From Chryseobacterium gleum (lineage in GTDB: Bacteria; Bacteroidota; Bacteroidia; Flavobacteriales_F; PHOS-HE28): a DNA stretch of 44,605 bases. This document shows, piece by piece, positions 19,505-21,091 of the stretch (its first letter is position 1; the number at the start of each line of letters is the position of its first letter). Position numbers and translations under genes: made by a program. The notes below the pieces were generated by a model. It had not been told where the DNA came from, ran no database searches, and saw nothing but the letters and a program-made list of their open reading frames with translations. The stretch lies in contig CAMCAZ010000028.1 in assembly GCA_945872795.1 (NCBI GenBank), positions 1 through 44,605 on the forward strand, given 5' to 3'.

Positions 19505-19915
19505 CTATGCGCAGGCCTTGCAACTGCCTTCCAGTTCCAGGTGGCTGTCCTTCAGCCTGAAGCCCTTGGGCACCTTCACGTGGGGCAGTGGCACGGCCTC
19601 CAGGCAATAGATACCCCCGCAATCCGTACACCGGAAATGGGCATGCACATCATGGTGGTGCCCTGAACTGCAGGTGGCGGCGCAGGAAGCATAGCGGGCC
19701 ACACCATGGGCATCCATGACGCGGTGCGCCAGACCAGCCTCCTCAAAAGCCTGCAACACCCGGAAAAGAGTGACACGGTCCGCCTGGTCCGGAAGCGCGC
19801 GTTCCACATCACCCTGCGAAAGCGCCGTTTCGCTCCCATGCAGGAGATCCAGCACGGCGACCCGCGTGTCGGTGACCCGAAGGTGGTGTGCACGCAAGCG
19901 CTCGCGACTGTCCAT
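19505..19915 (-). CDS. Fur-family metalloregulator (probably Zur-like)
   Basis: 136 residues with the Fur fold: winged helix (RVTDTRVAVLDLLHGSETAL, ALPDQADRVTLFRVLQAFEE) and the metal-binding dimerisation domain SGHHHDVHAHFRCTDCGGIY. The second CxxC is near the end (GSCKACA). The HHHDxHxHFxC and the two CxxC pairs keep the structural zinc and regulatory sites. A perfect -7 box TATCTTTG lies 5 bases before the ATG, and palindrome 1 (19935-19949) sits just upstream of it, so autoregulation is likely. Divergent lipoprotein and MerC genes suggest zinc rather than iron, but this is an inference. Confidence 0.88.
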   Translation of the reverse strand: MDSRERLRAHHLRVTDTRVAVLDLLHGSETALSQGDVERALPDQADRVTLFRVLQAFEEAGLAHRVMDAHGVARYASCAATCSSGHHHDVHAHFRCTDCGGIYCLEAVPLPHVKVPKGFRLKDSHLELEGSCKACA

Positions 19916-19920
19916 GCGGG

Positions 19921-19928
19921 CAAAGATA
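19921..19928 (-). promoter_or_regulatory. -7 promoter box of the Fur-family gene
   Basis: Minus strand TATCTTTG, a perfect match to the Bacteroidota -7 consensus TAnnTTTG. Only 5 bases separate it from the ATG at 19915, so the messenger would be leaderless or nearly so. The palindrome at 19935-19949 occupies the spacer between -7 and -33. Confidence 0.65.
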
Positions 19929-19934
19929 ATTTAA

Positions 19935-19949
19935 TGCAACCGTGTTGCA
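19935..19949. promoter_or_regulatory. Palindrome 1, probable Fur-family operator
   Basis: TGCAAC-CGT-GTTGCA, a perfect 6-bp inverted repeat with a 3-base spacer, 19 bases before the regulator's ATG and 6 bases upstream of its -7 box. An identical 15-mer occurs 38 bp away. Size and symmetry suit a Fur/Zur dimer site. Confidence 0.7.
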
Positions 19950-19966
19950 ATTGTCAGCCTGTGTCG

Positions 19967-19974
19967 CATATTTG
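19967..19974 (+). promoter_or_regulatory. -7-like box for the lipoprotein/MerC transcript
   Basis: CATATTTG on the plus strand resembles TAnnTTTG and touches palindrome 2 (19973-19987), so repressor binding there would block RNA polymerase. Leader to the ATG at 20028 is about 50 bases. Confidence 0.45.
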
Positions 19975-19987
19975 CAACCGTGTTGCA
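19973..19987. promoter_or_regulatory. Palindrome 2, probable Fur-family operator
   Basis: The second exact copy of TGCAAC-CGT-GTTGCA, overlapping the plus-strand -7-like box. Centre-to-centre distance to palindrome 1 is 38 bp. It lies 40 bases before the lipoprotein start. Confidence 0.7.
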
Positions 19988-20027
19988 CTAATGCGCCATT
20001 CCAACATACATCCTCAACCCAGCACAC

Positions 20028-20609
20028 ATGAACTCCATTATGAAGAACCTGTTGCTCCTCATCGCCCTCGGTGGCTCATTGGCAGCCTGCAAGAAGGATG
20101 AGGAAACGCCTCCGTCCAACAACCCGCCCGTGAACGAGGAGGAGCTGATCACCACCCTGCTGCTCACCTTCACAGATCAGGAGATCTCGGCGAACGTGTA
20201 CGAGCTGCGTTTCACGGACGTGGATGGCGATGGAGGGATCGCACCGGTGATCCAGGGTGATACGCTTCCTGCCAACCGGGCATTCAACTTGACCGTGCGA
20301 GTGCTGGATGAGAGCGGAGCCACACCGGAGGAGATCACTGAGGAGATCGAGGCGGAGGATGAGGACCACCAGTTCTTTTTCCAACCAACGGGAACCACCC
20401 TGCTCGTGAGCTACGCGGACAGCGACGCGAATAGCTTGCCGGTGGGCTTGGTCAACACGGCATCAACGGCAGCCCCCGGGCTGGGCACGCTGACCGTCAC
20501 GCTCCGACACCTGCCGAACAAGACGGCAGCAGGGGTCAGCACGGGTGATATCACCAACGCCGGAGGTGAAACGGACATCGAGGTCGCCTTTCCGGTGATC
20601 GTCGACTAG
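20028..20609 (+). CDS. Putative metal-regulated lipoprotein
   Basis: 193 residues. The signal MNSIMKNLLLLIALGGSLAAC ends in a lipobox (LAAC), so the mature protein is lipid-anchored at Cys21, followed by a Lys/Asp/Glu-rich and Pro/Asn linker. The remainder is beta-rich and acidic (FTDVDGDGGIAPVIQGDTLP, ITEEIEAEDEDHQFFF, LTVTLRHLPNKTAAGVSTGD, ETDIEVAFPVIVD). I recall similar small lipoproteins in Bacteroidota annotated as periplasmic binding-like and placed beside TonB or metal genes, but I would not assign a function. A second ATG at 20040 would still leave a full signal. It lies directly downstream of two Fur-type palindromes, so metal control is likely. Confidence 0.8.
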   Translation: MNSIMKNLLLLIALGGSLAACKKDEETPPSNNPPVNEEELITTLLLTFTDQEISANVYELRFTDVDGDGGIAPVIQGDTLPANRAFNLTVRVLDESGATPEEITEEIEAEDEDHQFFFQPTGTTLLVSYADSDANSLPVGLVNTASTAAPGLGTLTVTLRHLPNKTAAGVSTGDITNAGGETDIEVAFPVIVD

Positions 20610-20734
20610 GTGATTCACGAACGAGGGGCGGCTGCGGGGGCCACAGGGGTTGAACGTCCTGGTGTACGGCTTCCGCAGCTGCCTGCCTTCCATGATCACT
20701 GCCTGATGGCTCAACTGCTCACATCTCCCGCACG

Positions 20735-21091
20735 ATGAAGTCCCGGTCCTCCCTTCTCAGCAGCGATACTTATGGCATGGTGAATTCAGCGCTCTGTATG
20801 GTGCACTGTCTGGCCATGCCCGTCATGGTCACCGTGGGGGCTTCGTTCCTTTCCCATCCTGCGGTGGAGCTGGCGTTCATTGGGTTGGCTGCCTGGGCGG
20901 TCCGTTCCGCCACGGGTGCCAGCACACCGGTCCATTTGAAGGTTCTGCTCTGGACGATGTGGTCCATCTTCACCGCATGCCTTCTGTTGGAGGATGTTCA
21001 TGAGGTGTTTGGTTTGCTTGGGCTTGGTGCTTCCGCAGGACTGATCGCCGGTCATGTGCTTAATCTTCGGACCCGTACGCGGGTTGCGTAA
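20735..21091 (+). CDS. MerC domain membrane protein
   Basis: 118 residues with four predicted transmembrane helices. The first pair of conserved cysteines lies in SALCMVHCLAMPVMV, the CxxHC metal-site pattern of MerC. A further Cys is in the third helix (WSIFTACLLLEDVHEVFG), where HE residues follow. MerC proteins import mercuric ion in mer operons, while the Bacteroidota homologues near Fur-family genes are thought to serve other metals. No merR, merA or merP is nearby, so mercury resistance is unlikely here. It follows the lipoprotein by 125 bp on the same strand and may share its promoter. Confidence 0.83.
   Translation: MKSRSSLLSSDTYGMVNSALCMVHCLAMPVMVTVGASFLSHPAVELAFIGLAAWAVRSATGASTPVHLKVLLWTMWSIFTACLLLEDVHEVFGLLGLGASAGLIAGHVLNLRTRTRVA

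Follow-up and report, generated by a model that had tools for sequence, protein, structure and literature searches.

What are two identical palindromes doing between a gene for a Fur-family regulator and a divergent unit encoding a lipoprotein and a MerC protein, and to which metal would such a module respond? The locus lies within a 44,605-nucleotide stretch of Chryseobacterium gleum DNA, which we refer to as the window, and it comprises the following features:

19505..19915, minus strand: Fur-family regulator, probably of Zur type, 136 aa (PF01475; E. coli Zur ligand positions aligned)
19921..19928, minus strand (read 19928-19921): regulator -7 element, TATCTTTG, a perfect TAnnTTTG (consensus from PMC6847099)
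19935..19949, no strand: candidate Zur box 1, TGCAACCGTGTTGCA, an exact palindrome with near-matches in the same place in congeners
19945..19950, no strand: TTGCAA, a possible two-way -33 element, tentative, from coordinates and spacers
19967..19974, plus strand: -7-like element of the lipoprotein promoter, CATATTTG, one base off TAnnTTTG and overlapping box 2
19973..19987, no strand: candidate Zur box 2, TGCAACCGTGTTGCA, an exact palindrome, spaced 37-38 bp from its partner box in four congeners
20028..20609, plus strand: lipoprotein, 193 aa, with no named family in the searched libraries, often beside TonB receptors in relatives
20735..21091, plus strand: MerC-domain membrane protein, 118 aa (PF03203, 40.3 bits, cut-off 27.6)

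The original prediction had placed two identical 15-bp palindromes 38 bp apart between a Fur-like gene and a divergent lipoprotein/MerC unit, and this arrangement is borne out: the two 15-mers (19935-19949 and 19973-19987) are identical, they lie 38 bp apart centre to centre with a 23-bp gap between them, and PF01475 and PF03203 are both matched above their cut-offs.

When the regulator is aligned with E. coli Zur, its likely character becomes apparent. The protein matches the FUR domain (PF01475) at 40.4 bits, above the curated cut-off, and in the alignment its H64, C78, H91/H93 and E106 fall at the sensory positions H77, C88, H96 and E111, while C96, C99, C132 and C135 fall at the structural Cys4 site formed by C103, C106, C143 and C146. 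C88 is essential in E. coli Zur, where the C88S change abolishes the zinc response (PMC6103462). As judged from its sequence, the regulator has the Fur-family fold and domain, the structural Cys4 site and the sensory His/Cys/Glu ligands of a Zur protein; operators in front of zinc-uptake or zinc-sparing genes, a further mark of membership, were found in relatives and, in the source genome, at this locus only. Orthologues of the regulator are patchily distributed within the genus.

A different metal is the first alternative to be weighed, in which the regulator would be a Fur, Mur or Nur sensing iron, manganese or nickel, and the metal concerned would be imported by the lipoprotein-MerC unit. 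This is the sole Fur-family gene in the genome, its top PDB sequence matches include Fur proteins, and its top NCBIfam matches are Fur models, all of them far below cut-off in a library that does not tell Fur from Zur for this protein. We nevertheless consider the alternative unlikely, as Cys78 occupies the position of E. coli Zur C88, where P. aeruginosa Fur has no cysteine, and as COG0523, ZIP and MerC genes are found as neighbors. More fully, the genes that adjoin the regulator or MerC in relatives encode ZIP, CDF-like, MacB-like ABC, COG0523 and GTP cyclohydrolase I proteins, which, COG0523 aside, are connected with zinc through general zinc homeostasis. COG0523 proteins have been tied to zinc limitation and to Zur sites (PMC2770081).

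The distribution of the palindrome in relatives points in the same direction. Exact boxes in the genus precede genes for a COG0523 GTPase (L079, L090), a TonB-dependent receptor (L091) and fur or lipoprotein-MerC genes (L080, L083, L094); the other exact sites inspected were terminator stems or lay in or beside unrelated coding sequence. A scan of 39 genomes of the genus returned 24 matches to the palindrome pattern against 2 to the same pattern read backward. Class-wide, where upstream sites matching at least 11 of the 12 arm bases were counted, the box was present upstream of CxxHC-type MerC genes (14/19), lipoprotein genes (9/29) and fur orthologues (10/19), and none of 179 permuted half-sites used as a control gave more than 1 upstream match in any gene set. 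Absence of the palindrome upstream of orthologues had been named in advance as an observation that would tell against the module; boxes do occur there. A search for TGCAAC-N3-GTTGCA before TonB and zinc genes, also proposed at the outset, succeeded in relatives, where COG0523, TonB receptor and MerC genes and lipoprotein-TonB operons carry it, and failed in the source genome, where exact boxes occur at this locus only. The claim of a self-regulated, zinc-type Fur-family module is thus favored by the comparative evidence of boxes before zinc genes in relatives, with zinc as its probable metal.

In one congener (L079 1902-2104) the boxed COG0523 gene is followed by a gene for an FAD/NAD(P)-dependent oxidoreductase, and in another (L083 1537-2523) the oxidoreductase gene is divergent from fur, with two boxes ahead of it; it may be a further Zur target. 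The box is also carried by homologues in one Rhodocyclaceae MAG and one Methylophilaceae MAG. In the betaproteobacterial homologues L031 and L033 the equivalent of Cys78 is absent though the same box is kept, and transfer or mis-binning are possible sources of the box and homologue in these MAGs.

Within the 3.32-Mb source assembly, a search of the whole sequence found no exact TGCAAC-N3-GTTGCA sites besides these two. Five sites with one mismatch lie within ORFs, except for one in a terminator-like hairpin, and three-mismatch sites are no more numerous in the window than chance would give (18 against 21.9 expected), so that the signal of the palindrome resides in the exact sites and their conservation. 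Matches to relaxed patterns were likewise close in number to the backward-pattern control (32 vs 22), and additional Zur targets were not found with them: among the part of the two-mismatch sites that was inspected, all were internal to ORFs bar one intergenic site (L148), which adjoins no recognized metal gene. A search of the source genome for COG0523, run without a positive control, gave no match, and the source-genome orthologue of a TonB receptor (contig 58), which is syntenic with a boxed gene in the relative G024, has no box.

The MerC gene is the only one in the source genome, and the order of lipoprotein followed by MerC recurs in congeners. A consensus scan for terminator-like sites reported a single one, inside merC and against ~0.6 expected by chance, and none in the 125 bp that separate the two genes. 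The MerC domain match would also suit a unit centered on this protein that responds to mercury or toxic metals, a reading that we regard as very improbable: the boxed MerC genes are of the CxxHC type and have fur and COG0523 as neighbors, members of the other MerC group (CCFP motif, efflux-type neighbors) are without exact boxes, and no other mer-like gene was seen among the listed neighbors of the locus. This second PF03203 group, recognizable by an SPCCFPLFA motif, is often found beside efflux-type genes (L119, L120, L122, L126, L127, L131, L139-L141) and looks distinct from the CxxHC group.

The lipoprotein had been described as lacking an assigned function, and this still holds: residue 21 is a lipobox-like Cys, but Pfam, NCBIfam and the PDB gave no assignment, the PDB profile matches being marginal, and the AlphaFold model built from the single sequence had a mean pLDDT of 40, too low to be of use. 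The family is present in 102 of the 247 class genomes sampled and has invariant acidic and His positions. Its gene adjoins a TonB receptor in most of the inspected loci and a small His-rich protein in several. Given the frequent TonB receptor neighbors and the lack of a library match, our best guess is that the lipoprotein acts in outer-membrane zinc uptake, capturing metal for, or assisting, a TonB receptor. Since 20 of the 29 lipoprotein genes in the class set are without a box, the family is not always controlled by this regulator. The small His-rich proteins, which are probably secreted, are encoded ahead of lipoprotein-TonB or TonB receptor genes (L054, L059, L062-L064, L066, L106 4657-4995), and the single member tested had no Pfam match.

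The placement of the boxes can be understood in terms of the promoter elements of the primary sigma factor of Bacteroidota, for which the -33/-7 consensus is TTTG/TAnnTTTG (PMC6847099). As originally proposed, a perfect -7 box (TATCTTTG, 19928-19921) stands by one palindrome and a -7-like box (CATATTTG, 19967-19974) touches the other; at the latter element ATATTTGCAAC is invariant across six aligned congeneric promoters. Box 1 is situated at the -33 region, and the lipoprotein promoter has box 2 lying across its -7 element. Box pairs spaced by 37-38 bp are found again in four fur-divergent promoters of congeners and at COG0523 promoters (L079, L090, L118, L121), an arrangement that would suit one dimer lying on the -33 region and a second on the -7. 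The self-complementary TTGCAA that overlaps box 1 supplies a TTG at a distance of exactly 19 bp from either -7; since the -33 motif is weak (PMC6847099) and TTGCAA is not conserved in relatives, a single -33 element common to both divergent promoters is offered as a suggestion only. The -7 element of the regulator ends 5 bases before its ATG (window 19913-19928), close enough that the regulator mRNA may be leaderless or nearly so.

A reading of the palindromes as repeats arisen by chance, or as terminator stems, without any regulatory role has a negligible probability and is rejected, for although the same sequence forms terminator stems in the genus (L084, L088, L089) and occurs inside ORFs, the permuted half-site control, the recurring 37-38-bp pairing and the divergent-promoter position contradict it. 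Whenever genomes are scanned with this motif, such stems can turn up as false positives.

On the observed boxes, genes, cross-genome conservation, aligned ligand residues and promoter spacing, we infer the metal, the repression and the roles of the lipoprotein and MerC. The locus very probably represents control by Zur, the zinc-uptake regulator, of its own gene and of a lipoprotein-MerC uptake operon in Bacteroidota, and zinc is the best inference for the metal sensed. In the mechanism that we propose, dimers of the zinc-loaded regulator would occupy both TGCAAC-N3-GTTGCA boxes. With box 1 placed at the -33 of the two divergent promoters and box 2 across the -7 of the lipoprotein-MerC promoter, the regulator's own gene and the uptake operon would both be shut when zinc is sufficient. 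As zinc falls, the regulator would leave the DNA and the lipoprotein and MerC would be made, the former capturing metal or assisting the TonB receptor and the latter carrying Zn2+ across the inner membrane. It is possible, though short of probable, that the lipoprotein family is an outer-membrane zinc-uptake component acting with the TonB receptor and that CxxHC-type MerC is a dedicated zinc importer, giving a zinc route of Bacteroidota under Zur with boxes spaced onto the -33/-7 promoter of the phylum.

The literature searched says little about how Bacteroidota regulate zinc. We found no published Bacteroidota Zur box or zinc-linked MerC in the open-access literature; the kind of control system is already known, while the operator and the lipoprotein family are without a description that we could find there. 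With a defined operator, the regulon could be predicted throughout the phylum, and a widespread lipoprotein family and a MerC subtype would be tied to zinc uptake.

Several known systems offer comparison. P. gingivalis PgFur, also a Fur-family protein of Bacteroidota, likewise carries two CxxC zinc motifs, but it reportedly has no histidine-rich regulatory-metal motifs (PMC6613475), whereas the present regulator contains a segment rich in His and Cys as well as ligand positions like those of Zur; by description, the two are set apart. The mercury transporter MerC shares its domain (PF03203) with the protein described here, which instead adjoins a Zur-type regulator and its boxes, at a locus near which no mer operon was seen. 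The zinc-linked COG0523 GTPases (PMC2770081) are preceded by the same box in the congeners L079 and L090. With the Zur regulons of E. coli, Caulobacter and others (PMC6103462, PMC4176598), the system has in common a Fur-family repressor whose sensory Cys is conserved, palindromic operators, COG0523 and TonB receptor targets (in relatives) and an autoregulatory layout; it differs from them in its operator, TGCAAC-N3-GTTGCA, in a spacing matched to the Bacteroidota -33/-7 promoter, and in its MerC and lipoprotein targets.
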